Part shown: piece by piece, positions 4,681-64,000 of the stretch
Layout: each line of letters starts with the position of its first letter
How positions within the stretch are numbered: the first letter of the stretch is position 1
NCBI GenBank assembly: GCA_037447655.1
Contig: JBBHKE010001956.1
Location: forward strand, 363,251-427,250
Direction of reading: 5' to 3'
Origin: Zygnema cylindricum
Lineage: Eukaryota; Streptophyta; Zygnematophyceae; Zygnematales; Zygnemataceae
Length of the DNA: 64,000 nt
The notes under the pieces: model-generated
The model's database searches: none
Told to the model about the DNA's origin: nothing
Seen by the model: only the letters and a program-made list of their open reading frames with translations
Translations under genes and position numbers: made by a program

Positions 4681-4689
4681 TCAGCCCCA

Positions 4690-14728: not shown

Positions 14729-14730
<2 letters not shown>

Positions 14731-15619: not shown

Positions 15620-15753
15620 TAGCGTTGTGCATCATCTCTCTGATATCCGATATGTCTATTTCTTTAACATACCGATAACTGATTTATCGTTCTGGTAGGT
15701 CAGCGAGGATAATATCGCAACGCGATAGTGACACATTGCGATCGGCTACAGTA

Positions 15754-15953: not shown

Positions 15954-15980
15954 ACCGTGCTGGTAGAGGGTCGATAACTA

Positions 15981-16198
15981 CACCGAGTATCGCTATTAGA
16001 GTTAATGTTTCTTTTGCCACTTAAAACATCTTTTCTCTGTACACACTTGTCGGATTGTGGATCCGCCGGTTAAGATTGAAAGGTAACATTATCAGCTTCC
16101 GATTGGCGATCTCAAACTGAATATCCGACAAAAGTGTACGGAGAAAATATGTTTTAAGCGGCGAAAAAATACATTAACACTAATAGCGATTCACCGTG
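15981..16198. mobile_element. MITE family 1, copy 1
   Basis: A 218-bp element lies between TA at 15,979-15,980 and TA at 16,199-16,200. It begins CACCGAGTATCGCTATTAGAG and has long inverted arms: CACTTAAAACATCTTTTCTC near the left and GAGAAAATATGTTTTAAGCG near the right. The centre carries TTGTGGATCCGCCGGTTAAG. Confidence 0.85.
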
Positions 16199-16200
16199 TA

Positions 16201-18640: not shown

Positions 18641-18737
18641 ATGGCGGCTATCATAGTCATCTCTACTGTTCTAATATTTGCGTGCCACGTGGCGCTCGTA
18701 TCGGGAGTTTACAAGGGAGCCATGTCGAAGCCAGACA
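18641..18737 (+). CDS. Exon 1: signal peptide
   Basis: ATG at 18,641 opens MAAIIVISTVLIFACHVALV, a classic hydrophobic signal peptide with a likely cleavage after SG, then VYKGAMSKPD. The donor is GTTCGT at 18,738, a weak form. It leaves one base (A), giving Lys with the next exon. An in-frame ATG further on (18,722) would lose the signal peptide. Confidence 0.65.
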
Positions 18738-21700
18738 GTTCGTTTTTCCCTCCTTTACCCTTTTCTTCCCTCGCTATATGCCTGCAATCTTCTTCACACG
18801 TGCGAAATGTCTTTCCAATTCGCAGGCCAATATTTGTATGCACACATTCTAAATTTCTTTGCAAGTAGGAGACCAATGTTTGTCTTTGCACGTGCTAAAC
18901 GTCCTTCGTCTTCACACGCGTGAAATGAAAATGTCTTTTCGATCCGCCGACCAACTTTTGTCTTTACACGTGCGAAACGTGCTTCCTTTTACTCCTTTGA
19001 CACGTCTCTCTGACACGCTGCTGTACTGTTGCTGCAGAGACGGCTCTGGAGGCGGTGAAGGCGGCTGCGGAGTACCCGGAAAATTTTCCCGAGATCATAT
19101 GTGATGACTACAATTTTTGGTGTGACAATTCCGGTCGCGTGACGGACATGTGAGCTCTCATCGAAACGTTTTTTTCAAGATTTTTGAGGGTTTTTGTGTC
19201 TTAAGGAGTTTTTTGGTTGTTCTGGGGTGTTTTAGGGTTTACTAGGGAGTTTTAGGGTTCACTAGGGTGTTTTAGGGTTTACTAGGGTATTTTAGGGCTT
19301 ACTAGGGTATTTTAGGGCTTACTAGTGAGTTTTAGGGTTTTTAGGGTGTTTTAGGGTTCACTAGGGTGTTTTAGGGTTTACTAGGGTATTTTAGGGTTTT
19401 AGGGTTTTTAGGGGTTTAATTTCAACTATTCAAAAACGTATGGGAGGAGGGTGCAGAAATCTATTTGGTGTATAAAGAGAGAGGGGAGGGGGGAGGAGGG
19501 AAGGGGGTGGATGAGGGAGCTAGTTCAACAAACAATGGGGGAAGGGGGGTGCAGAGGTGCAGGTATCTAATTGGGGTATGTAGGAGGGAGAAGGAGGGGC
19601 AGAGGGGAGGGAAGGGGTGGGAGAGTATGAGGAATTCTGTTAGGAGAAAAAGGGGAGGGCGAATGAGGGGGGTTAGGGAGAAAATGGGGATTTAGTTAGG
19701 AAAGGAGCGGGATAGGTAGGTGGATGCGAAGGTGGAGGAACGAGATATTCAAGAGAGGGAGGCAAAAGGGGGAGAGGGGAGGGAGGATGGAATAAGGTGG
19801 TGAGAGAGAAAAGGAGACCTTATTAGGAGAGCGGGTAGAAATAGGGGAGTGGGGGAGGTGGGGGAAGAAGGTAAATCGTTTGGAGAGGGATGGGGAAGGT
19901 TGGAAGAGGAGGGGAGAGAGTGTGGCATCACATTAGGAGAGGGACGAGGGAAGAGGATGGAGAGAAAGGAGGGGGAGAAGGAAGGATCTCGCTAGGAGGA
20001 GATAGGAGATGCAAGACGAAAGGAGTTAGGGGAATGAGAGAACTTGTTAGGAGAGTGGGGGGGAGGGGGAAAAAAGAGGGTGGAGGGGCTGGATTTGTTA
20101 GGAAAAGGAGGAGGAAGTGAAAGGGGAAAAGGAACGGAGGAGAGGTGAGAGAGAATAGGAGATGATGTTAGGCGAGGGAGGGGAGGGGGGGACGGCGGGA
20201 TGCAAAGATTGAGGAATTTTATTAAAGGAGTGATGGTGACGGTTGAGGGGTAGGGAGGGGAGGGAAAAGGGACGAGAGGAGGGAATGAGACACTTTTATA
20301 AAGAAGGGAGAGGGAGGGAGAGGGCGAGGAAGGAGAGGTAGAAGGGGGAAATAAAAGAACTTGATCGGCGAGGAAGTAAGGAAAAAAAAACAAAAAGATC
20401 GAGGGAACTCGTTCAATGACCTGCAGGGTGGTGCAACCTCTTTGTTAGAGTATATCAATAAAGGAGGGTAGGGGGAGGGGTAAGGGGGGAGAGAGAACGA
20501 GCTAACTCGTCCACTGGTCAATAGGAGGGCCTCCAAAGATATCTTTGGGAACATAAAATGGGGTTGGGTTGGGGGAGAAAATGAAGGATCTCATTGAATG
20601 ACGTATGCTTAGAGGGTGTAGGGATGTAGGGGGGGAGAGAATGAAGGATCTCATTGAATGACGTATGCTTGGAGGGGTGTAGGGATGTAGGGGGAGAGAA
20701 TGAAGGATCTCATTGAATGACGTATGCTTGGAGGGGTGTAGGGATATAGGGGGAGAGAAGGAAGGATCTCATTGAATGACGTATGCTTGGAGGGGTGGGG
20801 AGATTTAGGGGGAGAGAATGAGAGATCTCATTGAATGACGTATGCTTGTGGGGGTGGAGAGATATAGATGGAGAGAATGAAGGATCTCATTGAATGAGGT
20901 ATGCTTGTGGGGGTGCAGAAATATAGGCGAGTTTGCATTTGGTGGGAGGATCGCGGAGGAGATTGGTAACCTTACACAATTGGAATACTTGTGAGTGAAA
21001 AAAACGATGCAGGACGCATCTCATGCGCGAGAAGCAAAAGAAACGGCATAAATACTTAATTATAAGAGAGAATGGGCTTGCGTATGTTAAAATTTGTTGT
21101 TTTGTGTTTTTTTTTTCCTCTTTTTAAGTGACAAAGTACTCTAATTTTCTAGAGTATTTTTGCCACCACCTGTCAGTTAATAAAATTGGGGGGGGGGAAG
21201 AGTCAAATGCATTAGTTAATACTTGAATCCAATGTAAACATGTTGATTAATGAGATGTTCGATAACATTTTTTAACATGGGCTTGCTAAACATTCAAGCC
21301 CAAATTTTTCTTTTGGTATAACCTTGTTGTGTACACTATTTAAGAGAACCTTTTGGGGGGGAGGGGGATATGGTGTGTTTGGGATGTCCGGTATCCCAGG
21401 GACCTCAATAAGAACGGGTTGAGTGGAAACATTCCATCGTCCATCGGTCAATTAAAGTTCCTCACATATTTGTAAGACACGTGACACTATGTTTATGTTA
21501 TGCATCAACATTGGTCTTAATGGTTATGTTTGTGATGGAGGAAAAGCTGAGGGGGAGGGAAAGGATTGTGAACAAAAGTGCAATAATTATTTGTAATAAA
21601 AATACTTATTAATAAAAATAACATTAAATGAATATACAATAATAATAATATGTTATAAGGAATATACAATAATAGTAACAAATAACATTTTTAGGTCACA

Positions 21701-24700: not shown

Positions 24701-27700
24701 ACAATAACAAAGAGTAAATAATAATAAGAGTTTATCTTTATATACTATTACTTTGTAACTTATGAATTCATACTTTTAACGTATATATGTATGTTTGTTT
24801 TTAAACGACTCATTTATAGTGGAAAACTTGTGTGATGGAATTTAGGCAAGTGGGGGAGGACGTGTATGCAAACAAATGCAATCTTGTGTAAGGAAATGAT
24901 ATTTTAACATCGTGTTTTTTTCCGTCTGTATTAATCCTTTTGACAACTATTTGTTTTTGATTTTTATATGTTATTCGAAAACATTTGGAACGGAATTTTC
25001 TATGTCAAAGGGTAGGGGGGCATGGCGAGATGCAGTAGTGAGAAAATATGACAACACTTATGTATATATGTTTTTGAAAAGGGGCGAAGTGGGGGGAGGA
25101 GGGGGGGAGCATCGATAAGATAAGTATTTCATGTTCTAAAATCTTATTTTTCTTGAATTTGAAATAGTCATTCGAAAATCTGGGATTGCTTGGTAAGGAT
25201 AATTCGGGGTGCTAATTTACTGAGAAGTCTTTTAAGGGTGGTTTTTTTTAGCAATTCCCGTTAGTTACATCTCCAATTTGCATGAAAATAAAATATTCTC
25301 CCAAAATCGACGTTTAAAAAAAAAACATACTTATTCCATAATAAAAGTACGCTGAACAGGTGCAAATCATTAACTGGATGTTTTGTAAGCAACCAAAACT
25401 TATAAAAAATATGCTTTTCTATTATCCAAGAACACAAAATTGCATAATGGAAGAAGTTTATAGTGTATGTGGTCTAATAATCAAGTAAGTATTATTTCAA
25501 TTCTTATAGCTCGATTGGGTTTGCAAAGACAAAAGATGCCCCGTAATATTGTTTTACACATTTCAATTTGTTAAAGATAAGGTAAAAACTAATCGTTGAA
25601 AACAAAATCTATTTAAAACTATAATTATCAAAATTTTTTATGAGGGTGATGGTGGTCAAAAACCCTTAAAAGATGTATTGACTTAAAAGTCACACTCAAA
25701 TCTTGTGTTTGACAACTTTGGAGCCTATACTGAATTGGAGGCACTTGGTGGGATGGGGGTTTTTTGGTGGGGGAGGAATACCCGGTGTTGCAGATATCTG
25801 GACAACAACATGTTGAGTGGAAGCATTCCATCGTCTATCGGTCAACTGGAATCCCTCAAAGACTTGTAAGTCACATGACGCTATGGTTATGTTACGAACC
25901 AAAAGTGTACTGTGAACGGTTATGTTCTGTGATGGAGGAACACGAATTTGTAATAAAAATGAGAAATTCTTAAAAATTACAATAATAAAAAAAAACAAAA
26001 AACAAAAAACAAAACAAAAAAAGAAAAACAAAATTACAAAAATAGAAGTAAATAACAAAAGATACAAATACATATAAGAAATTAATAATTCTTAACTTAT
26101 GTTAAACAACAATAATATTTATAAAATTTCATAACAGTGGTTACCAATATTAGTTTTTTTCGTAAGTATAATTATTAAAAGTAAAAAATAAGTACCTAAT
26201 AACGACGAGCTGATTTATAATAAAAAACAGGAAAGAAAATTACTTCCCACTTTTGTTTTTTTATAGTCAATATTTTTCGTTTTACCAAATTAAGCTTCCT
26301 TGTTTTTTTTTTGTTGTGTGAAAAAATCTAATAATGATAAATGAAATGACCTCATGGGAAAAGTGATGGAGGATGAAAACCATTTCGATGTATTAATTAT
26401 GACTGTACACTTAATGTTTTGTTTTTTCCATAACCTTGTAGCCAGCAACTTGGAAGCACTTAGTGGGTAGGTTAGTGGTCGGTGGGGTGGGAATTTCCGG
26501 TGTGTTAGATGGCTATTTGAAAACCAGTTGAGTGGAAGCATTCCGTCGTCCATTGGTCAATTGACATTCCTTCAAACATTGTTAGACACGACACAGTGGT
26601 GATGGTGTGCATCATAAGTGTACTCTAAATGATTATGGTTTGTGATGGAAGAAGAGGGGAGGAGGGGGGGTTGAGGTAGGAAGAAGGATTTGGGGAAAGT
26701 GCGGAATGGAAATCTAATATCACAAAGTATTAGGGATAGCAAATAGTAAACATTAATAAGAGTTTATCTTTTTATGATAATACTTTGTAACTCATGCATT
26801 CATGTTTACAATATGTATGTTATTGTTAGCAACTCATTTATAGTGGAAACATCATATGACCAATGGACGGAATTGTGAGGGGGGCGGTGTTGTGCATAGA
26901 AACAAATGGTTTCTTGTATAAGACGATCGTATTTCGATATCATGTTTTTCCCTCTATAGTAAGCTTTTTAATTCTTCTTGACGATAATTTTTTTTTTACT
27001 TACAGCTCTTTTTTTTTTAACATTTGGACCGAAATTATGTATTGGCGAGGGAATCTCTGGTGTCACAGGGATTTTTCAAGCAACCAGTTGAGTGGAAGCG
27101 TTCCGTTGTCAATTGGTCAATTGACATCCCTTCAAACATTGTAAGACACGACACAGTGGTGATGGTGTGCATCAAAAATGTACTCTAAAATATTACGGTT
27201 TGTGATGGAAAAAGAGGGGAGGAGGTGGGAAGGGTTCGGAGAAAGTACGAAAATAGACGATGAATGGATGTATAATATCACAAAATATTAACAATAACAA
27301 ATAATAAATAATATTAAGAGTTTATTTTTTTATGGTAATACTTTGTAACCCATGGATTCATGTTTTAAATATGTATGTTATTGTTAACAACTCATTTATA
27401 GTGAAAAAATTGTGTGACCAATAGAGAGAATTGTGGGGGGGAAAAGGCTATGTATAGGAACAAATGGTTTATGGTCTAAGATGACTGCATCGTGTTGTTT
27501 CCCTCTATATTAATCTTTTTAATAAGTTTTGATGATAATATTTTTTCTTGATTTATAACCATTTTTTTTAAACATTTTGAATGGAATTATGTATTGGCGA
27601 AGTAAGAGCACGGTGGAAAAGATAATTTTTTTTATGTGCTTTTTATTTCCAAAGGTGGGTGAGAGGGGGGGGGGAGATATTGGCTGGATAACTAATGTTT

Positions 27701-47883: not shown

Positions 47884-47932
<49 letters not shown>

Positions 47933-53900: not shown

Positions 53901-56900
53901 TCTTTATAAACTTTAGAGTGTGATGGAGGATTAATACCCTTTAGATGTATTCAGTAAGAGTTCTCCATTAATTTGTTTTTGGTTAAGAAACTTTGTATCT
54001 CACACAAAAAAAGAGGCACTTGGTGGGGAAGGAGGGTGGAAAACCCTAAAAAACCCTAAAAATCCACTTGGTGGGGTGGGAATTCGGTCACAGATGGATA
54101 TCTAACAATAAATTAAGTGGAATCATTCCATCGTCCATCAGTGAACTGATATTCCTCCAATACTTGTAAGACACATGATTGTATGGTTATGACACGTGTC
54201 AAAATTGTACTTCAAATGGTTATAGTTTGTTGTAGAAAATGTTTCACTGCATCGGAATGTAAGAATCATAATTATTTGTTAGTAGAGAGCTGGCACAATC
54301 ATTTAGAAAAATAATTTTTTGATAGTGATTTTATTATTTTTTTCTTTTCATTTAGAAAATGTAAGCTCAATTCTTGTTGTTTTTCAAATGTCAAAAAAAG
54401 ATCATAACTAACATTAATAATAGCAATAACAATAAACTAAAATAAAATAATTGTTTAAAATAATAATATCGATAACAAAAGAAAAAAAATAACAATAAAA
54501 GCAGTAAAAAAAAAACGATACAAATTAACAAAACATAAACAATCTAAACATAAAAGTAATGAAAAGTAATAAATACTAAGTAATGATAATAAGTGTTATA
54601 ATTAGTCGAACAAAAAATAATAGGAACTAATAAATAAGCATGAATTGTTTCGCTACGCTACATTTTTGATGTGCATGAAGCTTTTATGATTGATGGAGAG
54701 GAATGCCAATTTTTACTATGCATTTGTTGTTGCAGAGATATGTCATCTAACAAATTGTTGGGAATCATACCCCCAAGTTTCAGCATGCTTCAAAATTTGC
54801 AAGCATTGTGAGTATAAACCACTAACATTAGAAGGTTCATGGACCTAAGGCATTGACGGATCGCCATTATTGATCCTCGCGCTAGATATTCGCGATTTTT
54901 TAAAGCAATAAAGGATTCAAACATCGCGAACTTTGGGTCATATCAATCACCTTTCGCTACTTCTGGTTTCTTGTATCGCCCATCTTAGCCTTAAGATTGT
55001 AGGCTACCTTAATAACATGGTGGGAGCATAAAGGACATTCACACGACGGCTAACATTTTTCATCAAAAGATAGAAGGTGAAGGTGGTGACGTGGACACCG
55101 GGAAAGCATTTTGAGGAGAGCAATATCAAATTTACCCATGAGGACATCTATATCCATGAAAGGCAACCTAGATGTAGAAACATGCTTTTTTACATGTCAG
55201 TCATGTAGCCAATGTCACACTTAGCTAGAAGTTGACCCGTCCAACAGAACAAGCCGATGAATAACGCCTTTCGAATAAACTTCAGATTCCGGTACGCAAA
55301 AAATTACAAATTTTGATTGCACGTGTACCTTTTGGAACCAGCTTTCCACGCCTGTGAAAAGCCAGACTTTGTCCCAACTGGATTGTTACACCTTGTATCG
55401 CTATTAGCGTTAATGTTTTTTTTGCGAGTTAAAACATCTTTTCTCCGTACACGCTTGTCGGATTATGGATCTGAGGGTTGCGATTGAAAGCCAAAATTAT
55501 CACCTTTCCATTGGCAGTCTCCATGTGAAAATTGGACGTGTGTACGGAGAAAAGATGTTTTAAGTGACGAAAAAGTTATTAACACTAGAAAAAATTATTA
55601 ACACTAATAGTGATACACGGTGTAGTTGCGCCATGCGGCGAAACAAGTGTCCAAGATAGTATGGCCGCTCAATTTTAGAATTTTGCGGACGGCCAAGATC
55701 TTGGTCCTTGCACGTGCGGATTTGTACATAAGAAGTTGGCTAAACGATGAGTTTTAATGTCCGCGTAATGGTGATCGACCTTTTCCGGACTGTGAGCGAC
55801 CACATGGATGGATTATTAAATTTTGGCAAATCATAAAGTAGACGAGATTGGTCAAAGAAAACAAAAAACGACAAGATAAATAAATAAGTAACTTATGGAG
55901 ATTTGAAGTTTCAAATATAAAAAAAAACAATTTTTGTCTATTTCGGTAGAGTTTGATTTTTCACCAATGGTCCGAAAATACTTAATCCGCATGTTGTTAC
56001 CGCAAATTTTTGGTTTCTGACACGTTGACTTTTCTGTACTACTGTACCTTTCTGCAAACCAATAAAAGTGTTTAATCCGCCAACGTCTTATAATTTCCCA
56101 CGTGAGACACCAAGATTTGGGTCGTCCTCGAAAATAAAGATCAAACGGCCACAAATCTTAAAGCCAACATTACGCGTGTGGCGTAACTTGCCCCACCATA
56201 AAAGACAAAGATATGTTTTTACAACACCCACGGGTGTTTTATTTCTGGATTTTTTCCATTACCGAAATTAAAAGCTATTGAAAAAGAACATTTCTTTTTG
56301 ATTTCGAGCCTATTTTTTCTTTTTCTGTCAGATAGGTTCATTTCTAACTCTAGTGTTAATACTGTGAAACATTTTGTTTTGGATAAGATAGGAAATTTGC
56401 AACGTTTGTATACTCACACTTTTAGTTATGTTTGTTTACCAACGTGGTTTCAATTTCCAATTGTCACGTAACGATATCCTTCGTCATGTATATTGTGTTC
56501 ATATGTGCACAAAAGTCATTGTTAAACAGGGAAACAATTCTAACAAATAAATTTTTTTTCCAGGAATTTACGAAACAATTTATTGACAGGCCATGTCACC
56601 CTTCTTTTTCAAACTATAGGAAACTTAAGTGTGCAAGTGAGCAACAACTTTTTGTCAGGAACGACCATCATTGACAATGGCAAGCCAATATGTTTAAACA
56701 ACGCGAACAACTGTTTTGTTTCCAATTCCAACGAATCAATATGTTTTGCTAAAAATCAAACTCGAAGATCTATTACAGAATGCTCGGGATTTTGCAATGC
56801 ATCACAACCCGGGAGTGTCTGTGGAGGCCATGGCATATGTACCGCACTTGATGCGCCATGCATTTGTGATGAGGGATACTTCACGATTGAGAAAGGCAAT

Positions 56901-59900
56901 CCTTGCACTTTTGGTGAGCCCCAAGTGCCACGATTTATGGCATAGACATGTCTTATTCAAACATTAATACCATCAAATAAGTGTAAATGACTGCCACAAC
57001 CCATATAGACTTTAATGGAAGATACAAACGGACTTTGCATTGCGAAGATGCTCAGCCATTATCGCTAAATTTCAAAATTTATGTTTAGGGTACAAGCTAT
57101 AATTGCTTTGTTTCAAGGTGAATCCTTTTGGGTTGGTCAGCATCAATAGCATCAATACCATTGACGCTTTTCCACTGTGTGCTTCATATTTCAGACGATC
57201 GCGGTTTTGGGTTGGAAATGTCTTCACAAGTAGCTTCAAAGAAAATGAACAAATACTTCCGTTACGCGAGCTCGGGATACTTAACTCCCGATGAGGACAA
57301 CAACCCATCATGGATGGTGGCGACCAACTGGAATTGGGTGAAACGGCAAGCTGTTACAGCCATTAGGGACCAGCAAACATGTAGTACGTGGACAACCTAC
57401 CATTTTACTTGAGAATTATTATGAAAAAATTATGAAGTGTCTCTTCACCATTAGAGTTCGAAATTGACTGATTCGACCGGAAAGCCATTGAATTCGGTTT
57501 GGATCCAAACTGATAGCGCTTTTTCTAATAGCTTTAATTTCTGTACGCGGGAAATACAAAAAAAAATCCGCATGTGTGTTTTGGAATCAGTAAAGCGGCA
57601 AAAAACAGATTTATGTAGAGCATTTGTAAGTTACGCGGAGCGTCTTAGCATTGACTCCAAGATCACATGACCGTCCAATTTTACATTTCGCTTACGACCA
57701 AAGGTCTTGGTCTCCGCATGTGAGAATTTGCATACAAAAACGCTTGCGAAACAATGCATTTTTATTGGTTCACCAATCAGTAATATGGAAATTGAAGGTT
57801 CGCGTTCTGAACTAGAAAGAAAAAGAGGGAGAGGGAGAAAAAAGGAAGAAAGGGAGATATTGTAAACGAGAGAGAAAAAGGGAAAATAGGATTAACTTAT
57901 CCGGACTTACGTGACCAGATGGGACCTTTTTTTGCCGCGTCCGCCAAACAAATCGGCAAAAACTAATAAGCGAAAAATGCTTTTTTTTAATTGTTAGAAA
58001 CTTTCATGTCCTATTTAAATTATGTTTTTCTGTCTTTTTTTTTTTTTGACGTTGAGTCACATTATTCTTCTACAATTCAGATGTTTTCGTGGTCTTCTTT
58101 TTGTTTTGTTCACATTCCAAAATGTGCCTTTGTCATCTGTCACTTTGAAAGGCTATAAATTCACCGCTTTTTGCAGTAAAAATCTGTTTTTTTCTTGTCA
58201 CAAGTACTTTGGTGAAATTAAGGATTTTTTTCGTGAATACTGACCGAGATATTCACGGTGCAAACTGGACTGATTTGCCTAGTGAACTGAAAATTTCAGT
58301 TCATTCACTTCCAACTCTAGTGTTAAACCTGTTCATTGCTTTACTTGAGAATTGTTCATGAAGAGACAAGTAATTCTTTAAGCATTTGAAGGAGTGAAAC
58401 TGAAATGGAACCAAAAAAAAAAAAAAAATGGCTTTTTTTTGGAATGGATTTTTTTTTTTTTTCAAATCATCAACAACATAACGAGCAGTATCCATTTTCA
58501 AACACCGTAGATAACAGCTTTAGGCCGGTTGCATTCATTCCTCGACTTATTTCAACGGCTCCCTATATCCCTTTCCTCCACTGATTTCACCGTTACATTC
58601 ATGATCCTGATCTACTCATATGAATGGTTGTGTCTTAGCTTCTATATCTTCTTTGATCAAAAGTTTGTAAAATTTTATTTTGCTCTATTGTTCCAGACAC
58701 ATGCTGGATTTTTGCATCCGTTTCAGCGATCGAAAGTGCCCTCTACATCGCCGGAGCCGGAAACTCGCCTGTTCCCACCATTGCGGAAGGCCAATTTTTG
58801 AACTGTTCTAGCTTGAAGCTTAATTGTTCTGTTGGGGGCTGGCCTTCTCAAGCCCTCGACTATGCAGCCACTAACACTCTCATTTTGGCCTCTCAATACC
58901 GTCCAGGCATGTGTGGAGGACGGCAAGTAAGTTGCACTTCACATGGCTACCGTATTTAAAGCCAAAATCAAAAGACAAACTGAACATGGTTAAATGCTTG
59001 TGATGAACTTTCTTGATCCTTGTTTTTAAGCACGTCCATTTGGGTCTTTTCCGAAAATAAAATATTGAGTGGTTGTATGTGCAGGCTGGTAGCACTTTGA
59101 CCATAACATCTTTTGAGAGAATCTTGATGAACGGCTGGCTAGGCTTGCTTTTAGCTCTACAACAACAGCCATCGATTGTGAGCATAGAAGCAAGTGGAAG
59201 CAGTTTTTTGAATTATGATCCCAATATGGTAAGTTGATGAAACAGTAACGTCTGGCTCTATGGTTAAAACTGTTGTTGTGAGACAACTGCTGGTAACAAA
59301 GACGATGAAGAAGCAGCAGTAGTCATTTCATTTCAGACGTAAACAAGCAAGAAGCTTTTACTAAAAACTGATCGGAAAGCAGCAACTTCAACAAAAGATA
59401 AAACACAAATCAGGGACACAATAGCCCTGCAAATCTACTACAATGTTGATAACAATAAGAGGAACACACAAAATTTCACAGAATTTTACTCACAGATGTG
59501 TGAGATATTCACAAATAAAATTGCCAAAAACCTCACATACAGTTTTGCTACAAAAGTGTTCCTAACTCCAAAATTGCGTAAGTCCTACTCTTACACACTA
59601 AAGCTTCACTACTGAAAGTACACAGGCATACCAGCCGTACACAACCTACTTGACACAACTAATAGTGTATGTATACCCGAAAAACACAAGGTATGTCATA
59701 AACAGTTCAAACTACTCTAATTACCTAATTACTAAACGACAAGCGTTTGATCTACAAAATCTAATCTTACGCTAGTCAGCATTTGTCGGCGGCCTCTGTC
59801 CGCCGTCCGTATTTCAGATTCGGCACCGTAGATGTGCCCCGTATGTCACTGTGGTCGCAAGGTGTATCCGCGATCCACAGAGCAACATTCCGGAACGTAC

Positions 59901-62900
59901 GCTCCCTAATGACGACGTGTATCCGCGATCCACAGAGCAACATTCCGGAGCGTACGCTCCCTAATGACGACGCCTGTCCCAAGAGTGCCCAAGGAGTGAA
60001 TGATATAGTGAACTCCTATTGTCACCGTAACACTAATTTCGGTTCATACTAAACTTACCTTACCAAATTATTCTAAGTATTGAAACTCTCTCCCTCACAC
60101 CCGAGGCATGGAGAGGACTAAAGCTTTCAAAAACAACAAAAACCATGGGCCATTAGAGTCATCTCCCAAAAGATGCATGTGACGTTATGCAAGAGCTTAC
60201 ACTTCAAAAAAAAATCTGGGCGGAGATCAAAGAAACACCTTTTGATAAGCATTAGAGTCGAAAATGAAAGGTCATACTTAGACAAGAGACCCTTTAAGCC
60301 ACCTATATATATTTTGTAAGCTATTTTACAAATTTTACATGATTGTTTATGTTAATTTTTCTTTTTTTTACTTTGCCAGGACTAAAAGAAAATGCAAGTG
60401 GGTTTTGCAGGGAGTGTTTGATGACGAGGATTGTTTTGCAAACGGAGTGGATCATGTCGTCGTTGTCGTTGGATATGACTTGACTGCGACTCCGCCCTAT
60501 TGGCTCATCCGCAATTCTTGGGGCACAAAATGGGGAGACAATGGATATATGCGCATGAAAATCACAGGAGGATCAGGAATTTGCGGAATAAATACCTTAC
60601 CCGCCCTCATACCTATAGTGAATGCATCTGGTAATGTACATCATTTACTTTTGCTCACTAAAGCCAATGTCACAAAAACATATGTATTTATCACTGAAGT
60701 AAAAACAAATGTGTCTTTTTTTGTGAGATTTTATAAATAAACCTTTGCGATATGCAAGAAAATAACTATTAATCATGCAAAGTACTTTTCAGTACTAGAA
60801 CGACGCATAAACCTGATTCATTTTTTACTTTTTGCTCGTTATTGAAATTGATTAGTTCATAACTCGAGGATTTGTTTTGAAGAGCCTATAGAATTGATAT
60901 TGATGGTTGAAAATTTTCCTTTTGTGACATAGAGTACGCTTGGTTCTTTTTTGAAATAAGTTGGCTAAAAATTTTTCAGCTTATAAAATTGGAACGAAAT
61001 GTCAACCAAAACGTACCTATACTTATAGTGTCACACAAATAGGAAAATTGCCATATCCACACACCTTAACCCAACTTGCAATTTCTTACCGTGGGTGTTT
61101 TTATCTTTAGCGGATCCTTGCCGTGTCAAAAATTATGCGACGAACCAATTACAAGTGACAAATGGCCCGGGTGTCATGAATCCGTGTGGCAATGGCGTTT
61201 GTACCCCATTAGGCAAAACCAACACTTGCCAATGCAGCAAAAACTTTGTTCCCGTGACGAACACGGACGGCACCCAGACTTGTACACCAGGTTCACATGG
61301 AAAACTTCTAAAATCATGGAAACTTTATGAAATGCATCACAATAATGATCTTTATATGCAAGCCAAATAAAGTGAACAACAGATCATGTACCATAGATCA
61401 ACGGATATAGGTGTATCTCTCTATATTTTTTTTGCATTGTAAATAACTTGTGCACATCGATTTTACCGTATCGCTGTTTTTTATTTATGTTTTTTCTTTG
61501 CTTCGGCTTGTAATATACTTGTAGTGTTTTGTCCAACTACATAGATACTAATGCATAGATACTAATATGAAAGAACACGTGGCAATATGACAATGCAGGA
61601 AATCCTTGCAAATTCTATTCAAAAAATCCATGTGGTCTTGGCACGTGTGTGAACTCTGTAGTAAATCCGGGCTCATATCTTTGTATTTGCCCAATGGGCT
61701 ATTCTGCTTATGAGTCTGAAAGCCCTCTTACATGTGTACCAAGTAAGTAATGAGATTTAAAGCAACTCATGTCCCTCGTATTTGAAATAGGTGGGAAAAA
61801 TGAACTGGAAGTTGAAAAACATTTTTTTTCGTTCTACACTGCCCATTGTTTTTAGTGCAAGGAACTTGGCTGATTGTTGTCCACTCCCTTAAATATTTTT
61901 GTTAACACTATTTTATGATTTTCGGTCAACAAAAGTCACGACCAACTTAGTATTATTAACTTTAATAACAAATATTACAGCAGTCTTAGATTTTAAGCTT
62001 GCCATAATATCTTGTGTGAATCTCCTCTTTGGCATTGTTTTTTCCGAGAAGCCAAATTGCTCGTCTCATCCGATGTATTATTGCCCACTGTCTTGTCTTA
62101 CTCTTACAGGTAATATTCTTGGAGGACCAAGTTACTACATTGTGCCAGAAAATAGCATTGTGACATGTCGTGATATTCGAAATGCTTACGGGATACTTGA
62201 AGCTAACTTTACGAGTCAAAATCCGGTAATTTTTTCCTCTTTTAAGTATATGCGTAAATCTTTTTCTATGGTGGTCTTTCATGTCCACACTTGAAGCTTA
62301 CACCGTGAATCGTAATCAGCGTTAATGTTTTTTTCGTCTTTTAAAACATCTTTTCTTCGTACACAGATGTCGAATTGTGGATCTGACGCTTGCGATTGAA
62401 AGGTAAAATTCTCAGCTTACGATTGGCTGTCTTAAACTGAAACTTGGACAAGAGTGTACGGAGAAAAGATGTTTTCAGTGGCGAAAAAAATATTAACGCT
62501 AATTGTGTACCTCACAGAAATGGGTTTGTTTTTAGTGTTAACCACTTGACAACCCACATGGTCTATTGAGCATGGCAGAAATTTAAGTGCGATTCACCAC
62601 TGCCGGCAAAAACAAGGGTGGACGTGACGGCATATCGCAACTGTTCATTAATCTATTCCACAAATGAGGTCAGTGATTCAAAAAAAAAATGAGAAATCAG
62701 AAGCATATTGCAGGGCTGCCAGGAAAACTACAAATGCATTTGAAATTGCTTAGAGGACATGAGTGACGCTTGACACACCCGCTAGTCGTCTCTTTTGTTT
62801 CCGTTTTCAAAATGTTTGCTAAGGGTTATGGTCAAGACCACTTATTCCATCTTGGGTTAGCTTCTCCTTTGTTTTACAGGGTGACAGTTGCAAGTCGATT

Positions 62901-63008
62901 CAGTCTATGTTCAATTTGCCAAAAAACCTCTCTGGTTTGGGATCGCCTAATCCGGACCTCAACTGTTCCATTCTTCAACCATACCAACAGGTGCACGAAA
63001 TCCAATAA
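18641..63008 (+). CDS. Giant LRR-EGF-papain-EGF-EGF-LysM-LysM gene (31 exons)
   Basis: Thirty-one exons join without a frame break into 3,369 coding bases (1,122 residues). Residues 1-22 are a signal peptide; 23-69 an LRR cap ending CDNSGRVTDM-type; about 70-525 nineteen LRRs, one per exon; about 526-560 a last LRR; about 595-642 an EGF-like module; about 680-903 a C1A papain domain; 904-963 and 964-1011 EGF-like modules; about 1018-1068 and 1069-1119 two LysM-like domains; then TAA. Papain hallmarks: Gln702, Cys705, Cys708 (TCWIFASVSAIES), His845 (NGVDHVVVVVGYD), Asn865 (RNSWGTKWGDNGY). No I29 inhibitor propeptide is seen and no transmembrane segment, so a secreted product is inferred. LysM domains of other proteins bind GlcNAc-containing glycans. 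Exon model is by eye; the single-gene call rests on phase continuity and on a typical LRR cap at one end. Splitting into two genes is possible but less likely, because the last LRR and the first EGF share one exon. Confidence 0.75.
19038..19149 (+). CDS. Exon 2: LRR N-terminal cap
   Basis: The acceptor TTGCTGCAG ends at 19,037; the donor GTGAGC starts at 19,150, leaving two bases (phase 2) as required by the LRR exons. It encodes TALEAVKAAAEYPENFPEII then CDDYNFWCDNSGRVTD. The paired cysteines and SGRVT before the first repeat are typical of plant LRRNT caps. Confidence 0.8.
19200..19410. repeat. Interstitial telomere-like repeat (TTTAGGG variants)
   Basis: GTTTTAGGGTTTACTAGGGT recurs with a period of about 25 bp, made of TTTAGGG and CTAGGG words. 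TTTAGGG is the plant-type telomere unit; similar short islands are common in plant introns and promoters. Confidence 0.7.
20581..20918. repeat. 59-bp tandem array running into the first LRR acceptor
   Basis: ATGAAGGATCTCATTGAATG starts units at 20,581, 20,641, 20,700, 20,759, 20,818 and 20,877 (one 60-bp, then 59-bp spacings). Each unit continues ACGTATGCTTGGAGGGGTGT and AGGGATGTAGGGGGAGAGA. In the sixth unit this last part is GGGTGCAGAAATATAGGCGAG, which contains the acceptor and first bases of exon 3. Confidence 0.85.
20919..20990 (+). CDS. Exon 3: LRR 1
   Basis: Acceptor GGGTGCAG, donor GTGAGT. 72 bp, phase 2 at both ends. It encodes FGGRIAEEIGNLTQLEYL after NIGEFA and is the most divergent LRR exon of the 5' half. 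Confidence 0.8.
21400..21471 (+). CDS. Exon 4: LRR 2
   Basis: Acceptor GTATCCCAG, donor GTAAGA. 72 bp, phase 2/2. It encodes DLNKNG then LSGNIPSSIGQLKFLTYL, a plant-type LxGxIPxxI repeat. Confidence 0.85.
22250..23668 (+). mobile_element. Decayed Ty1/copia element D (+ strand) in intron 4
   Basis: The clearest part is the RNase H end: SKEVKYMATWNALK at about 23,373-23,416 (copia S-x-x-E-x-E-Y-M-A), and THLDNMAFYERLGERQRVEL followed by VEEVANMLTNA at about 23,538-23,645 (copia K-x-H-I-D ... ADxxTK). A possible protease-like DWIL near 22,540 is weak. Stops and frameshifts abound. LTRs were not located; the surroundings (about 21,900-24,440) are probably also of this insertion. Confidence 0.6.
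24510..24760 (+). repeat. LRR module that has lost its exon (unit between LRR 2 and LRR 3)
   Basis: The intron-end signature CTTGTAGCCAATAGCTTGGC, GGCACTTAGTGG is followed by a G-rich tract, then directly by GAGTGCGGAAGTAGATAATA and AATAAGAGTTTATCTTT. In intact modules (26.4-26.8 and 29.4-29.7 kb) the acceptor, the 72-bp exon and about 120 bp lie between these two parts. Here they are missing, probably by deletion between G-rich tracts. Confidence 0.7.
25794..25865 (+). CDS. Exon 5: LRR 3
   Basis: Acceptor GGTGTTGCAG, donor GTAAGT. 72 bp, phase 2/2. YLDNNM then LSGSIPSSIGQLESLKDL. Its module is closely similar to that of LRR 7 (30.8 kb), including upstream ACTGAATTGGAGGCACTTGG. Confidence 0.9.
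26509..26580 (+). CDS. Exon 6: LRR 4
   Basis: Acceptor TGTGTTAG, donor GTTAGA (weaker than the usual GTAAGA of this array). 72 bp, phase 2/2. WLFENQ then LSGSIPSSIGQLTFLQTL. The weak donor could favour skipping, which would keep frame. Confidence 0.8.
27069..27140 (+). CDS. Exon 7: LRR 5
   Basis: Acceptor GTGTCACAG, donor GTAAGA. 72 bp, phase 2/2. DFSSNQ then LSGSVPLSIGQLTSLQTL. Confidence 0.9.
27840..28460 (-). mobile_element. Decayed Ty1/copia element A: RNase H end plus LTR-like 3' part
   Basis: The minus strand (28,460 to 28,095) encodes ATSAAIKELLWVKSHLHELG, CDNQVAISIASNPSYHYKSK and HMDTRLHFVKEKLFSKVI, a clear copia RNase H C-terminus. Downstream (27,840-28,075 on +) the sequence CACACTAAATCTGATAC and CTGAATCTCTCCCTCTCTC resembles the LTRs at 33.5-34.75 and 59.3-60.1 kb, so this looks like the 3' LTR of the same family. 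The rest of pol is missing. Confidence 0.75.
29465..29536 (+). CDS. Exon 8: LRR 6
   Basis: Acceptor GGTGACACAG, donor GTAAGA. 72 bp, phase 2/2. VLANNQ then LSGSIPSSIGQMTSLQAL. Module flanks closely match those of LRR 4. Confidence 0.9.
30817..30888 (+). CDS. Exon 9: LRR 7
   Basis: Acceptor GGTGTTGCAG, donor GTAAGA. 72 bp, phase 2/2. YLDSNK then LSGSIPSSIGQLTSLQYL, close to the array consensus. Confidence 0.9.
32049..32120 (+). CDS. Exon 10: LRR 8
   Basis: Acceptor CTTTCTCAG, donor GTAAGA. 72 bp, phase 2/2. WLSTNE then LSGNIQSFIGNLASLKEL; the consensus IP is replaced by IQ. Confidence 0.85.
32480..33489 (-). mobile_element. Decayed Ty1/copia element B: Gag and protease
   Basis: Reading on the minus strand, FDGQKYLYWADLVKSYVTQV (ending with a stop near 33,333) is a Gag N-terminus of the copia type. 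Near 32,810 the zinc knuckle CVYCYAQRHFYKQC keeps C-x2-C-x4-H-x4-C without its glycine. The aspartic protease region reads GWIMDSGSV near 32,590. The element is cut off at about 32,480, with no integrase or RT. Its Gag frame runs up to the LTR boundary and I see no initiator-Met PBS there. Confidence 0.7.
33490..34753 (-). repeat. LTR of element B, enlarged by an internal tandem repeat
   Basis: The ends are TGTTG (33,490-33,494) and CAACA (34,749-34,753), identical to the ends of the solo LTR at 59.3 kb. The shared interior includes CCTAACTCCAAAATTG, GTATGTCATAATGAAATC and the CTCTCTTTCTCC end region. Between about 33,680 and 34,200 the block TTTTTGATACAAACAAGTTC, AATGTAAATAACACAATGAGG is present about three times, making this LTR about 1.26 kb against 0.87 kb. 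Confidence 0.7.
35048..35119 (+). CDS. Exon 11: LRR 9
   Basis: Acceptor GGTATTGCAG, donor GTAAGA. 72 bp, phase 2/2. LLNNNK then FNGSIPSSIGQLKSIKYL. Confidence 0.9.
35561..36612. mobile_element. hAT-like non-autonomous DNA transposon, 1,052 bp
   Basis: The ends are TAGTGTTGGGTA and TACCCAACACTA. Both sides carry the perfect 8-bp duplication CAATTGAG (35,553-35,560 and 36,613-36,620), the hallmark of hAT insertion. Subterminal regions are dense in CGATATATCG and ATATCGCGATA words. The interior has no transposase; it holds a GCAGTAGCTAGTACTACC-type repeat (about 36,150-36,465). The perfect duplication suggests a fairly recent insertion. Confidence 0.9.
36150..36465. repeat. CAGCAGTAGCTAGTACTACC repeat inside the hAT-like element
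   Basis: Irregular repeats of CAGTAG, CTAGTACTAC and GGCAGCAGCTG fill about 300 bp. Many CAGCTG and CTAGTACTAG words are self-complementary, so the strand could fold. Confidence 0.75.
37586..37657 (+). CDS. Exon 12: LRR 10
   Basis: Acceptor GTGTCACAG, donor GTAAGG. 72 bp, phase 2/2. DLSNNQ then LSGSIPLSFTNFTSLQEL. First copy of the duplicated module. Confidence 0.9.
38781..38852 (+). CDS. Exon 13: LRR 11 (identical to LRR 10)
   Basis: Same 72 bp as exon 12, with the same acceptor and donor, from the second copy of the duplicated module. Adding it lengthens the protein by exactly 24 residues without changing frame. Confidence 0.9.
40099..40170 (+). CDS. Exon 14: LRR 12
   Basis: Acceptor GCTCCAACAG, donor GTAAGA. 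72 bp, phase 2/2. SMFNNK then LSGGIPSSIFPMKSLNYL. Confidence 0.85.
41380..43906 (-). mobile_element. Decayed Ty1/copia element C: Gag, protease and integrase
   Basis: All on the minus strand. Near 42,690 the zinc knuckle reads CYYCNRWGHISSQC, an intact C-x2-C-x4-H-x4-C. Near 42,430 a protease-like region reads GAIYHICTDATYFDEM. Integrase core: KLKVVRLDNEREFFVFEGYF and LYTAPCSLEYNG at about 41,500-41,650, then KNWTMVRAMMATQF. Next to the LTR, TTGATATTAGAGCAAG resembles the usual initiator-Met primer site TGGTATCAGAGC. RT and RNase H are missing and many stops are present. Confidence 0.8.
43907..44287 (-). repeat. 5' LTR of element C, 381 bp
   Basis: The ends are TGATA (43,907) and TATCA (44,287), a 5-bp inverted repeat of the usual TG..CA form, and the primer-binding-like site adjoins at 43,906. 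No partner LTR was found at the low-coordinate side. Confidence 0.65.
44288..46633 (+). other. Rest of the intron before LRR 13
   Basis: Apart from the 20-bp minisatellite (45,724-46,080), I recognise only AT-rich intron sequence and, from about 46,200, the usual module sequence ahead of an LRR exon (GGTTTTAACTTTGTAGCCCATAA). Confidence 0.5.
45724..46080. repeat. Minisatellite AACCGGATCTAACTTGAGAA (about 20 bp)
   Basis: Roughly seventeen units of AAAACCGGATCTAACTTGAG occur head to tail. Variants include CTTTAGA for CTTGAGA and three longer units with TTTGCTTGAG. No coding potential is inferred. Confidence 0.9.
46634..46705 (+). CDS. Exon 15: LRR 13
   Basis: Acceptor TTGATACAG, donor GTAAGA. 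72 bp, phase 2/2. YLSSNQ then FSGSIPSSIIQIKSLLVL. It ends CT rather than TT; with the next A the split codon is still Leu. Confidence 0.85.
46955..47153. mobile_element. MITE family 1, copy 3 (ends decayed)
   Basis: The inner arms are recognisable (TTATTAGTGTTAGTG, CGTAAAACACCTTTTCTACG, TCTGACGGTTGCGATCGAAA, GGCGAAAAATAGTAAC, ATTAATGATACACG). The outermost TACACCGTG is lost on the left and the right end is GATACACGAAAAG, so the TA duplication cannot be checked. Confidence 0.65.
47849..47930. repeat. (TA)n microsatellite with ACATATATATA interruptions
   Basis: TATATA runs dominate about 80 bp. This is ordinary intronic microsatellite DNA. Confidence 0.85.
49254..49325 (+). CDS. Exon 16: LRR 14
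   Basis: Acceptor GCTATCACAG, donor GTAAGA. 72 bp, phase 2/2. GLSNNQ then LSGNIPSSIGQLTSLQEL. Confidence 0.9.
50241..50312 (+). CDS. Exon 17: LRR 15
   Basis: Acceptor GTGTCATAG, donor GTAAGA. 72 bp, phase 2/2. YLQSNL then LSGSIPSSIVNLTSLQYL. Confidence 0.9.
50920..51158. repeat. CTCCCT pyrimidine tract in the intron before LRR 16
   Basis: About 240 bp of almost pure C/T (CTCTCCCTCTCCCT) ends about 38 bp before the exon 18 acceptor. In other modules this position holds GGTGGGGTGGG-type G-rich DNA, so the tract is an inserted or expanded replacement. Confidence 0.8.
51196..51267 (+). CDS. Exon 18: LRR 16
   Basis: Acceptor GGCATCATAG, donor GTGAGA. 72 bp, phase 2/2. WLAKNQ then LSGSIPSSIGRLTSLLSL. 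Confidence 0.9.
51640..51780 (+). repeat. Second LRR module without an exon
   Basis: The module signature is present (TGGCCTTGTAGCCCCACACT, AACTAGGAGGCATTTTTAGGG, GGTGTGGTTTTGGGGGTGGGGATACCCG), where the acceptor and exon would follow within about 20 bp. The sequence instead runs into ATTTATTTTATTTGTCTTTA. No LRR codons are found downstream. Confidence 0.65.
51880..52630. repeat. AAT-rich intron block
   Basis: AATAATAA, TAACAAT and TAATGATAA words make up about 750 bp. Shorter equivalents follow several LRR exons (for example 40,320-40,510, 47,440-47,640, 49,560-49,920, 54,410-54,620), so they look like a standing part of the repeated module. Confidence 0.6.
53683..53754 (+). CDS. Exon 19: LRR 17
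   Basis: Acceptor GGGGTCACAG, donor GTAAGA. 72 bp, phase 2/2. WISDNQ then LSGIIPSSIGQIASLQGV. It ends GT, so the final Leu of the repeat is Val. Confidence 0.85.
54094..54165 (+). CDS. Exon 20: LRR 18
   Basis: Acceptor TCGGTCACAG, donor GTAAGA. 72 bp, phase 2/2. WISNNK then LSGIIPSSISELIFLQYL. Lying only 339 bp after exon 19, it has the shortest intron between LRR exons after LRR 2. Confidence 0.85.
54736..54807 (+). CDS. Exon 21: LRR 19
   Basis: Acceptor TTGTTGCAG, donor GTGAGT. 72 bp, phase 2/2. DMSSNK then LLGIIPPSFSMLQNLQAL. Its introns lack the module signature of the others, so it appears to belong to the older, unduplicated 3' end of the array. Confidence 0.9.
55250..55810. repeat. 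Repeat copy split by a MITE (partner of 57,500-57,790)
   Basis: Words such as TTTTGGAACCAG, CCGCTCAATTTTAGAATTTTGCG, GGCCAAGATCTTGGTCCTTGCA and CGTGCGGATTTGTACA correspond to TTTTGGAATCAG, CCGTCCAATTTTACATTTCGC, GACCAAAGGTCTTGGTCTCCGCA and TGTGAGAATTTGCATACA at 57.5-57.75 kb. In this copy a family 1 MITE (55,389-55,622) interrupts the element. No end signals were defined. Confidence 0.5.
55389..55622. mobile_element. MITE family 1, copy 4
   Basis: A 234-bp element lies between TA at 55,387-55,388 and TA at 55,623-55,624. It begins CACCTTGTATCGCTATTAGCG and ends ACTAATAGTGATACACGGTG. Arms: GTTAAAACATCTTTTCTCCG and GGAGAAAAGATGTTTTAAGTG. Near the right end AATTATTAACACTA is duplicated. Confidence 0.85.
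56564..56913 (+). CDS. Exon 22: last LRR, linker and EGF-like module 1
   Basis: Acceptor TTTTCCAG ending at 56,563, donor GTGAGC at 56,914, phases 2 and 1. NLRNNLLTGHVTLLFQTIGN is a decayed LRR, followed by VSNNFLSGT. Next comes a Cys-containing linker (CLNNANNCFVSNSNESIC), and then the EGF-like VCGGHGICTALDAPCICDEG with six cysteines in that region. One exon joins the LRR and EGF parts, which supports a single gene across the two halves. Confidence 0.9.
57195..57383 (+). CDS. Exon 23: start of papain domain
   Basis: Acceptor ATTTCAG ending at 57,194. Two donors are possible: GTAGTA at 57,381 or GTACGT at 57,384. I prefer 57,384 because it gives DQQTC then N-TCW, restoring the papain spacing Gln-x2-Cys-x2-Cys (Gln702, Cys705, Cys708). 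It encodes MSSQVASKKMNKYFRYASSG, a linker, then NWNWVKRQAVTAIRDQ, the usual mature N-terminus. The I29 propeptide is absent. Confidence 0.85.
57500..57790. repeat. Repeat copy (partner of 55,250-55,810)
   Basis: This intronic segment shares several 15-25-bp words with 55.25-55.81 kb in the same order and orientation, without the MITE. It is probably an unclassified dispersed element. Confidence 0.45.
58697..58926 (+). CDS. Exon 24: papain catalytic cysteine region
   Basis: Acceptor TTGTTCCAG ending at 58,696, donor GTAAGT at 58,927, phases 1 and 0. It holds the catalytic Cys in TCWIFASVSAIESALYIAG. QFLNCSSLKLNCSVGGWPSQ then ALDY matches the papain CxGG block that pairs with Cys705. It ends PGMCGGRQ. 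Confidence 0.95.
59085..59228 (+). CDS. Exon 25: papain central segment
   Basis: Acceptor TATGTGCAG ending at 59,084, donor GTAAGT at 59,229, phase 0 at both ends. LTITSFERILMNGWLGLLLA, then LQQQPSIVSIEASGSSFLNY matches the papain QPVSVAIEA..F..Y block. Confidence 0.95.
59266..60143 (-). mobile_element. Solo LTR of a copia-like family, with perfect 5-bp duplication
   Basis: The LTR runs 59,271-60,138 (868 bp) with ends TGTTG and CAACA. AAAAC flanks it on both sides (59,266-59,270 and 60,139-60,143). It is homologous to the LTR of element B, whose internal sequence sets the minus orientation. A 55-bp direct repeat (GTGTATCCGCGATCCACAGA) occurs twice at 59,862 and 59,917. It lies in the intron between exons 25 and 26 of the papain domain. 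Confidence 0.9.
60411..60630 (+). CDS. Exon 26: papain His/Asn region
   Basis: Acceptor GGTTTTGCAG ending at 60,410, donor GTAATG at 60,631, phases 0 and 1. A nearer AG (60,379) is ruled out because it would put a stop in the required frame. It holds NGVDHVVVVVGYDLTATPPY with the catalytic His and WLIRNSWGTKWGDNGYMRMK with the catalytic Asn, then GICGIN. Confidence 0.95.
61111..61290 (+). CDS. Exon 27: EGF-like module 2
   Basis: Acceptor TTATCTTTAG ending at 61,110, phase 1 at both ends. The donor GTTCAC at 61,291 is weak but of the same GTTC type as exon 1. DPCRVKNYATNQL, then NPCGNGVCTPLGKTNTCQCS and VTNTDGTQTC give a six-cysteine EGF-like pattern. Confidence 0.85.
61599..61742 (+). CDS. 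Exon 28: EGF-like module 3
   Basis: Acceptor ACAATGCAG ending at 61,598, donor GTAAGT at 61,743, phase 1 at both ends. NPCKFYSKNPCGLGTCVNSV, then GSYLCICPMGYSAY and LTCVP form a second six-cysteine EGF-like module. The 1-1 phase is typical of shuffled EGF exons. Confidence 0.9.
62110..62225 (+). CDS. Exon 29: LysM 1, first half
   Basis: Acceptor CTCTTACAG ending at 62,109, donor GTAATT at 62,226, phases 1 and 0. SYYIVPENSIVTCRDIRNAY, then ILEANFTSQNP fits the LysM pattern Y-x-V ... C-x-x-I ... N-P. Confidence 0.75.
62301..62507. mobile_element. MITE family 1, copy 5
   Basis: A 207-bp element lies between TA at 62,299-62,300 and TA at 62,508-62,509. It begins CACCGTGAATCGTAATCAGCG. Arms: TTTTAAAACATCTTTTCTTCG and GGAGAAAAGATGTTTTCAGTG. 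It sits in the 353-bp intron between the two LysM 1 exons and makes up most of it. Confidence 0.85.
62579..62668 (+). CDS. Exon 30: LysM 1 end and LysM 2 start
   Basis: Acceptor GCATGGCAG ending at 62,578, donor GTCAGT at 62,669, 90 bp, phase 0 at both ends. KFKCDSPLPAKTRVDVTAYR completes LysM 1 in the N-P-x-x-x-C-x-x-x-L form. NCSLIYSTNE opens LysM 2. Confidence 0.75.
62880..63008 (+). CDS. Exon 31: LysM 2 and stop
   Basis: Acceptor TTGTTTTACAG ending at 62,879, phase 0. GDSCKSIQSMFNLPKNLSGL, then PNPDLNCSILQPYQQ is a clear LysM core. The frame reads on as VHEIQ and stops at TAA (63,006-63,008). A possible donor GTGCAC at 62,991 could lead to a further exon beyond the window; I prefer the stop because LysM domains end near QQV. 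Confidence 0.7.
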   Translation, partial: GDSCKSIQSMFNLPKNLSGLGSPNPDLNCSILQPYQQVHEIQ

Positions 63009-64000
63009 GGCTGTTTAGGGTAATTGGGTTTTTTAGGGTTTTTTCACATCACATCACATTTTACAACTTGTAAGTATTTTACATATGAGCAATGCTTACA
63101 GACATACAAAATGGACTGACCCGTGCATATTAATTAATTATGACACCGGTCAAGCGAAGAAGGTTTAAATATATAGTTTCACGATCATTACTGAAGGCTG
63201 CCATAGTTCTAGCAGTTTAAACAGTTACAGATTGTCGAGATTACGCTACTATATAATAACTTTAAGATGTCCTTTAATGTTGACCCTATTCTTTTGGATC
63301 TTCGTACGGTTTCTATAAAACTGTTTCTCCCCCCCTTTTCCTCTTTCCCCAATGTCCCATTCTCCCCCTTTTCCCCACTTCCCGTTCTTTCCGTCTTCCC
63401 TTCTTCGCCTCTCCCATGCTCCCCTTCTTCCCTTTTACCCATTTCCCTTTTTACTATTTTTCCATTTTTTTCCTTCTTTAACTCTCCATCACTCCAATTC
63501 GGTCTTCTGCAACAATCACAGACTTCCACTTCCGTTTTCCTTTTTTCCCCTTCATGTTCCCTCTCTCATTTCCCTCTTTATCTTGCCTCATCCCCTTTAA
63601 TCACTTCTCCCTTTTAATTTTCTCCCCCTGCCCTCCCTCTCACCCATTTCAGCTTCCACCCTATGTTCCTTCCCTCCCCTCTCCCTATTCCTTTTTTCTC
63701 TTCTCCACTTCACCCATTTTTCCCTTTTCTCAAACTCACCTTCTTCTTTTATGGCCTTCTTCAAGATTCACACTCTCCCATGTTCCTATCTCTCCTTCCA
63801 CCTGACTTCTTTTTCCCATTCCTTCAATCCACCATTCTGTTCTTTTCCCTTTCCCTCCTCTCGTGACCTCATTTCCCCATACCATCCCACTATTTGCACA
63901 TCCTCCCCTTCTCCCTTTCTCCTTCTCTCACACTCTCTTCCCCTCACCTCTTCAACAGTTTTCCCATTATTGGACCGTCCCCCGTCCACCCCACCTTTCT
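63009..64000. other. 3' flank, pyrimidine-rich, no recognised gene
   Basis: The first part has TTTAGGGTTTTTT and CATCACATCACAT words. From about 63,320 to the end the + strand is strongly C/T-rich (TTCCCCCTTTTCCC type), an irregular counterpart of the purine-rich block at 19.4-20.5 kb. No polyadenylation signal was identified with confidence. Confidence 0.6.

Follow-up and report, generated by a model that had tools for sequence, protein, structure and literature searches.

A Zygnema cylindricum gene joins leucine-rich repeats, EGF-like domains, a papain-type protease and LysM domains in one reading frame

We analysed a 64,000-nucleotide stretch of Zygnema cylindricum DNA (the window), which is the final 64 kb of contig JBBHKE010001956.1 (here C1470) in a genome assembly of 352.8 Mb and 2689 contigs, and found that it carries a gene joining leucine-rich repeats (LRRs), EGF-like domains, a papain-type (C1A) cysteine protease with intact catalytic residues, and LysM domains. 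The fusion gene is real, and four lines of evidence place its parts in one gene: a single exon that links the LRRs to the first EGF, assembled transcripts of relatives, a protein alignment and a colinear paralogue. Its coding sequence shows constraint, its copy number in the genome is large, and the number of LRR exons varies between copies. We lean towards the view, built from sequence comparison, that the gene belongs to a large streptophyte-algal family of soluble secreted cysteine proteases that would be held by LysM domains on N-acetylglucosamine (GlcNAc)-type polymers and aimed by LRRs, most likely at microbes.

We rebuilt the gene without the earlier exon list by scanning for open, LRR-like blocks of the form AG-N72-GT and completing the remainder from reading frames. 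The block scan returned 19 LRR exons, each exactly 72 bp long and all entered in phase 2, and the rebuilt model has 31 exons at 18641-63008 on the + strand, with continuous phases from the ATG at 18641. All 30 introns have GT-AG borders, and their sizes range from 158 to 6463 bp. Read to the stop at 63006-63008, the model encodes 1119 residues in the order signal peptide, LRR cap, 19 LRR exons, LRR-to-EGF exon, C1A, two EGFs and two LysMs. Exon 22 also opens with LRR-like sequence, which makes the 20 LRRs counted by an earlier reading made from the letters alone (the sequence-only reading) a fair description. That reading had also placed EGF and C1A in frame with a complete catalytic set, and the rebuilt model contains the Gln, Cys, His and Asn. 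The features are as follows.

18641..18737, + strand: exon 1, start codon and signal peptide (model; hydropathy peak 2.64 at residue 2)
19038..19149, + strand: exon 2, LRR N-terminal cap, LRRNT-like (model; aligns with the LRRNT_2 region of P0003; paralogue exon similar, E 2.7e-5)
20919..20990, + strand: exon 3, LRR (block scan, model)
21400..21471, + strand: exon 4, LRR (block scan, model)
25794..25865, + strand: exon 5, LRR (block scan, model)
26509..26580, + strand: exon 6, LRR (block scan, model)
27069..27140, + strand: exon 7, LRR (block scan, model)
29465..29536, + strand: exon 8, LRR (block scan, model)
30817..30888, + strand: exon 9, LRR (block scan, model)
32049..32120, + strand: exon 10, LRR (block scan, model)
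35048..35119, + strand: exon 11, LRR (block scan, model)
37586..37657, + strand: exon 12, LRR, tandem duplicate of exon 13 (block scan, model, repeat comparison)
38781..38852, + strand: exon 13, LRR, tandem duplicate of exon 12 (block scan, model, repeat comparison)
40099..40170, + strand: exon 14, LRR (block scan, model)
46634..46705, + strand: exon 15, LRR (block scan, model)
49254..49325, + strand: exon 16, LRR (block scan, model, kept in paralogue)
50241..50312, + strand: exon 17, LRR (block scan, model, kept in paralogue)
51196..51267, + strand: exon 18, LRR (block scan, model, kept in paralogue)
53683..53754, + strand: exon 19, LRR (block scan, model, kept in paralogue)
54094..54165, + strand: exon 20, LRR (block scan, model, kept in paralogue)
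54736..54807, + strand: exon 21, LRR (block scan, model, kept in paralogue)
56564..56913, + strand: exon 22, last LRR(s), C-terminal cap and EGF 1 (model, relatives' alignment, paralogue)
57195..57383, + strand: exon 23, conserved pre-segment and C1A start with oxyanion Gln (model, C1A comparison, relatives' alignment, paralogue)
58697..58926, + strand: exon 24, C1A, catalytic Cys (model, C1A comparison, paralogue)
59085..59228, + strand: exon 25, C1A (model, C1A comparison, paralogue)
60411..60630, + strand: exon 26, C1A, catalytic His and Asn (model, C1A comparison, paralogue, genome search)
61111..61290, + strand: exon 27, EGF 2 (model, relatives' alignment, paralogue)
61599..61742, + strand: exon 28, EGF 3, Pfam EGF (model, Pfam, paralogue)
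62110..62225, + strand: exon 29, LysM 1, first part (model, relatives' alignment, paralogue)
62588..62668, + strand: exon 30, LysM 1 end and LysM 2 start (model, relatives' alignment, paralogue)
62880..62990, + strand: exon 31, LysM 2, not the last exon; donor GT at 62991 (model, paralogue)
62991..64000, + strand: intron 31, unfinished at the contig end; contains the apparent stop 63006-63008 and the insertion 63012-63822 (paralogue alignment)

A fixed AG-72-GT LRR-motif scan of + strand positions 18001-64000 gave 19 matches, comprising 18 of the 19 model LRR exons (exon 3 was missed) and a chance match at 24549. The same scan gave no match on the - strand of the window, none in + strand positions 1-18000, one in 233,726 antisense bases taken from other loci and, averaged over 20 single-base shuffles, 0.2. 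Because the scan is nearly empty on these controls, the LRR exon array is more than chance. Pfam identified LRR_1 (E 6.1e-61) and Peptidase_C1 (E 1.3e-38, residues 685-892; 133.7 bits against a gathering cut-off of 20.7) in the model, and an EGF in the tail piece that exceeded its cut-off (22.9 versus 21.5 bits). Pfam found no I29 propeptide before the C1A domain at E<=1; this inhibitor propeptide is common, though not universal, in C1A peptidases. In the predicted structure of the relative P0004, 247 residues align to procathepsin K (7pck_A) against 211-212 to mature cathepsin K, with some residues before the domain aligning with propeptides, but the AlphaFold input alignment included ordinary C1A proteins with propeptides.

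The join between LRR and EGF needs no splicing, because exon 22 holds the LRR end and EGF 1 in a single open exon. Two EukProt assembled transcripts, P0001 (1178 amino acids) and P0003 (1041 amino acids), carry LRR, C1A and LysM in one frame; they contradict the case of separate messages that would undo the earlier claim of LRR and protease parts on one mRNA. In a 7-row alignment, the window protein matches relatives from the LRR cap through LysM2. The closest paralogue lies on contig C1318 (L032 to L029, and L024). Eight pieces of it follow window 47931-63011 in the same order at 85-95% DNA identity, and all 16 of exons 16-31 have the same length, phase and GT-AG borders there. Comparing the exons of the two copies, we obtained a synonymous divergence (Ks) of 0.115, a nonsynonymous divergence (Ka) of 0.022 and a Ka/Ks of 0.19, though constraint acting on the other copy, rather than on the window copy, could explain this value. 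By part, Ka/Ks was 0.28 for the LRRs, 0.55 for exon 22 (3 changes only), 0.16 for C1A, 0.02 for EGF2-3 and 0.30 for LysM.

The paralogue also informs the 3′ end. In L024, the same exon 31 ends YQQ with its CAG/GT donor in the matching position, followed by exons for LysM3 and LysM4; in the relatives of the 7-row alignment, the LysM2 block continues into two further LysMs. Window 62701-63011 is 93.6% identical to L024, and window 63823-64000 continues the same intron at 96.7% to the last base. An 811-bp insertion at 63012-63822, partly pyrimidine-rich, is present in the window only and absent from L024. The contig ends at the window end, inside intron 31. Because the paralogue and relatives splice after YQQ to LysM3 and LysM4, the TAA at 63006-63008 is intron read-through, and we rejected it as the gene end on the paralogue splice site and the intron alignment. 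The exons, phases and GT-AG borders of the sequence-only reading were thus reproduced, but its run from signal peptide to stop was not. Its two LysM-like domains do lie within the window, but the family has four, with LysM3 and LysM4 seen in L024. Its 44-kb length has to be given up: judged by these alignments the gene is longer than 44 kb, its 3′ part lying beyond the contig end. Going by the spacing in L024, the LysM3 exon would lie about 0.85 kb beyond the window, with LysM4 after it. In six loci of the same genome, reading on reaches a stop soon after the LysM4 exon, which suggests, but does not prove, that this exon is the last.

Relatives were sought in two protein searches, and absence from other organisms is weak evidence because each scored only about 8000 candidates sharing most words. 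The first search returned 41 proteins; P0001-P0029 belong to the family or lie close to it by domain list, and come from Closterium strains, EukProt transcripts, one lgn entry and Mesotaenium (P0007, so named by its source); in P0030-P0041 the match spans 17-43% of the query part. Five C1A-EGF-EGF-LysM forms, used as a profile, brought up 81 proteins. The matches named as moss, liverwort or flowering plant (P0051-P0054, P0056 and P0063) have 30-32% query coverage and, by their Pfam lists, are ordinary C1A proteases, most with granulin and I29. Seven unnamed Closterium, Mesotaenium and EukProt proteins (P0001, P0003, P0007, P0012, P0013, P0018 and P0042) belong to the same family, with LRR, C1A and LysM found together by Pfam in six of them and P0007 being LRR-like by eye only. 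The full LRR-EGF-C1A-EGF-EGF-LysM order in one protein is found in the window model, with LysM3-4 taken from L024, and in relatives. We also observed legume-lectin sister forms on the same C1A in Closterium (P0005, P0008, P0011, P0015, P0017, P0024 and P0027) and EukProt (P0043), either as LRR with lectin or as lectin with C1A and LysM.

Within the genome, exon 26 was used as a query, and 150 of the 161 candidates were scored. In 100 places, among which alleles may be counted twice, 65 or more of the 73 residues aligned at >=59% identity; 93 of these places have no internal stop. Contig C39 has five exon-26 matches (57148, 103577, 120911, 158762 and 213080), a possible cluster. Twenty stretches were drawn, not at random, from the top part of the Pfam list; 19 contain a family exon (L009-L027), and L028 resembles an ordinary C1A gene. 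All twelve queries from exon 22 to LysM4 were matched in 13 of the 19 loci (E<=1; order not checked). The catalytic residues were kept wherever the corresponding place was found: Gln in 16/16, Cys in 17/17, and His and Asn in 19/19. A 72-bp LRR exon occurs in the short upstream part of 8/20 stretches. LRR exons number 19 in the window and at least 7 on C784; in the close paralogue, 6 were found. In the window, a 1.2-kb unit with LRR exon 12/13 is tandemly duplicated at 36803-39175 with 97.8% identity, and such duplication of an intron-exon unit is one way in which the LRR array grows. An older, similar repeat pair lies at 26046-27050 and 29004-30020 (85%).

Relatives' transcripts and paralogues support the earlier proposal that the C1A protease is secreted and carries LRR and LysM arms; the action at the cell wall or on microbial glycans that was also put forward remains conjectural. 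The predicted domain plan of the family is a signal peptide, an LRR solenoid, an EGF, a C1A domain without a recognisable I29, two EGFs and four LysMs. The LysMs would anchor the enzyme on GlcNAc-type polymers, chitin or peptidoglycan, and the LRRs may select a protein substrate or partner. The enzyme would then cut proteins at such surfaces, most likely where it contacts fungi, oomycetes or bacteria. Beyond the signal peptide, we found no membrane-type hydrophobic window in the model (as far as available), P0001 or P0004. LRR and LysM are the two main ectodomain types of plant immune receptors, and here both sit on one enzyme of a many-copy family in a probable streptophyte alga. The gene is a concrete candidate, open to cloning, for the extracellular action of land-plant relatives on microbial or wall surfaces, and it prompts the question of whether the receptors and the secreted proteases of plants go back to older forms in which they were combined. 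Bolder, and rather doubtful, is the idea of an extracellular defence of about a hundred receptor-proteases in an alga close to land plants: receptor-type ectodomains fused directly to the effector enzyme would form a repertoire of aimed proteases, its LRR arrays lengthened and shortened by intron-exon duplication, acting with no signalling step.

Several observations bear on the favoured reading, and some weigh against it. Pfam gave no LysM match at E<=1 in the LysM pieces of the window; we call these pieces LysM because they align to relatives that do match, P0001 and P0003 scoring 36.7 and 36.2 bits against a cut-off of 20.9 as sums of weak repeats in the region aligned to the window pieces. 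With the LysM part as query, a PDB sequence search found only 5bum (E 0.13), and no LysM chain was among the matches listed in a PDB fold comparison, a list filled by the C1A domain. The predicted structure of P0001 is weak (predicted local distance difference test score, pLDDT, 63.2) and was used only to note beta-alpha-alpha-beta runs at the LysM positions. Outside the signal peptide, P0003 and P0043 have a single hydrophobic window each. In a 34-row alignment, with 31 rows covering the site, Ser replaces the catalytic Cys in P0019, P0020 and P0006, all from Closterium and with Pfam lists free of LRR domains, and Glu replaces Gln in P0020 and P0043; because of these replacements, some family members may not cut. 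Concave LRR positions are more variable than the others (mean entropy 2.15 versus 1.01), but the ratio of nonsynonymous to synonymous polymorphism (pN/pS) was no higher on them (0.53 versus 0.57, 18 window exons). Selection for variety on the concave face was thus tested and not seen, and, with pN/pS not raised, nothing indicates that new recognition is being selected for.

In sequence, a function in mating or in the wall of the alga itself could not be told apart from the favoured one, and the alternative that does best is the same protein with such a job: loosening or maturing the wall or mucilage, or serving sexual reproduction, rather than acting on microbes. In its favour, a chitin-binding C1A protease of Volvox reportedly responds to the pheromone that induces sex. 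The available part of the survey of C1A-LysM proteins in Archaeplastida other than vascular plants gives no immune test (PMC6362431), but the roughly 100 exon-26 places and the differing LRR number (19, 6 found, >=7) fit a repertoire better than a housekeeping enzyme, a pattern argument only; we hold this alternative to be unlikely, though it deserves weight. It is improbable that the gene is a copy in decay, or one broken recently, within a working family. The 97.8% tandem duplication adds one LRR, 7/100 exon-26 places elsewhere carry stops and the 3′ end of the window gene lies off the contig, but its 31 exons contain no stop or frame break and the low Ka/Ks, possibly owed to the other copy, points the same way. 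Less probable still is a non-cutting C1A domain in a soluble receptor or lectin: three Closterium relatives lack the catalytic Cys, as do some papain-fold proteins (2b1m), but the window gene and all 17 loci of the same genome found with that exon retain it. That an LRR protein gene and a neighbouring protease gene were joined in error is extremely unlikely and is contradicted by the relatives' single transcripts and by exon 22, which, with its splice site and the next exon, is kept in the paralogue. The frame of exon 22 would continue to a stop at 56945 if the intron were unspliced, but exon 23 and the preceding bases offer, by eye, no start with a signal peptide.

Around the gene, broken reading frames at window 13117-14669 look reverse transcriptase-like by eye; Pfam gave no match at E<=0.01 for these frames or for the other window open reading frames examined, six in all. 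A long purine/pyrimidine simple repeat lies upstream of the gene at 3154-4762, intron 2 contains degenerate TTTAGGG-like repeats (19202-19418), and two introns share an interspersed repeat (55386-55587 and 62298-62501, 81% similar).

The association of C1A with LysM is known from Archaeplastida other than vascular plants (algae and bryophytes), and C1A-lectin combinations were not retained in vascular plants, according to the available part of PMC6362431. The window family shares with those proteins a papain-type domain joined to LysM and adds the LRR and EGF order, neither of which that part mentions for them (PMC6362431). A study reporting 209 domain combinations unique to Zygnematophyceae does not name LRR-EGF-C1A-EGF-EGF-LysM among them in the part available (PMC11096116). 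The LRR-C1A-LysM architecture is not mentioned in the accessible parts of PMC11289646, PMC7289718 and PMC6027541, and a term search of PMC10407611 gave no match. In titles and abstracts, with most subscription journals outside the search, we found no published description of a family with the full order. The earlier statement that no named family has this order therefore stands as to names, but C1A-LysM alone has been published (PMC6362431, in the part available) and public databases contain unnamed proteins that have the whole order. The gene is real, and its form builds on the known C1A-LysM type, to which it adds an unusual receptor-like arm and a high copy number.

Among known systems, plant C1A proteases such as ficin, papain and ervatamin have the same fold and catalytic residues but, unlike the window family, possess an I29 propeptide and no recognition arms. 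In Volvox, the sex-inducing pheromone reportedly induces a C1A protease that is secreted and carries chitin-binding repeats; this protein is said to have an extensin-like spacer and no LRR or EGF. Some members of the unnamed Closterium proteins also combine LRR, legume lectin and C1A. With plant LRR receptor-like proteins and kinases, the window gene has in common an LRRNT-like cap and plant-type 24-residue LRRs. Those receptors continue after the LRRs into a membrane span with a tail or a kinase, neither of which was found in the window gene, whose own end is off the contig; in their place, a protease follows.
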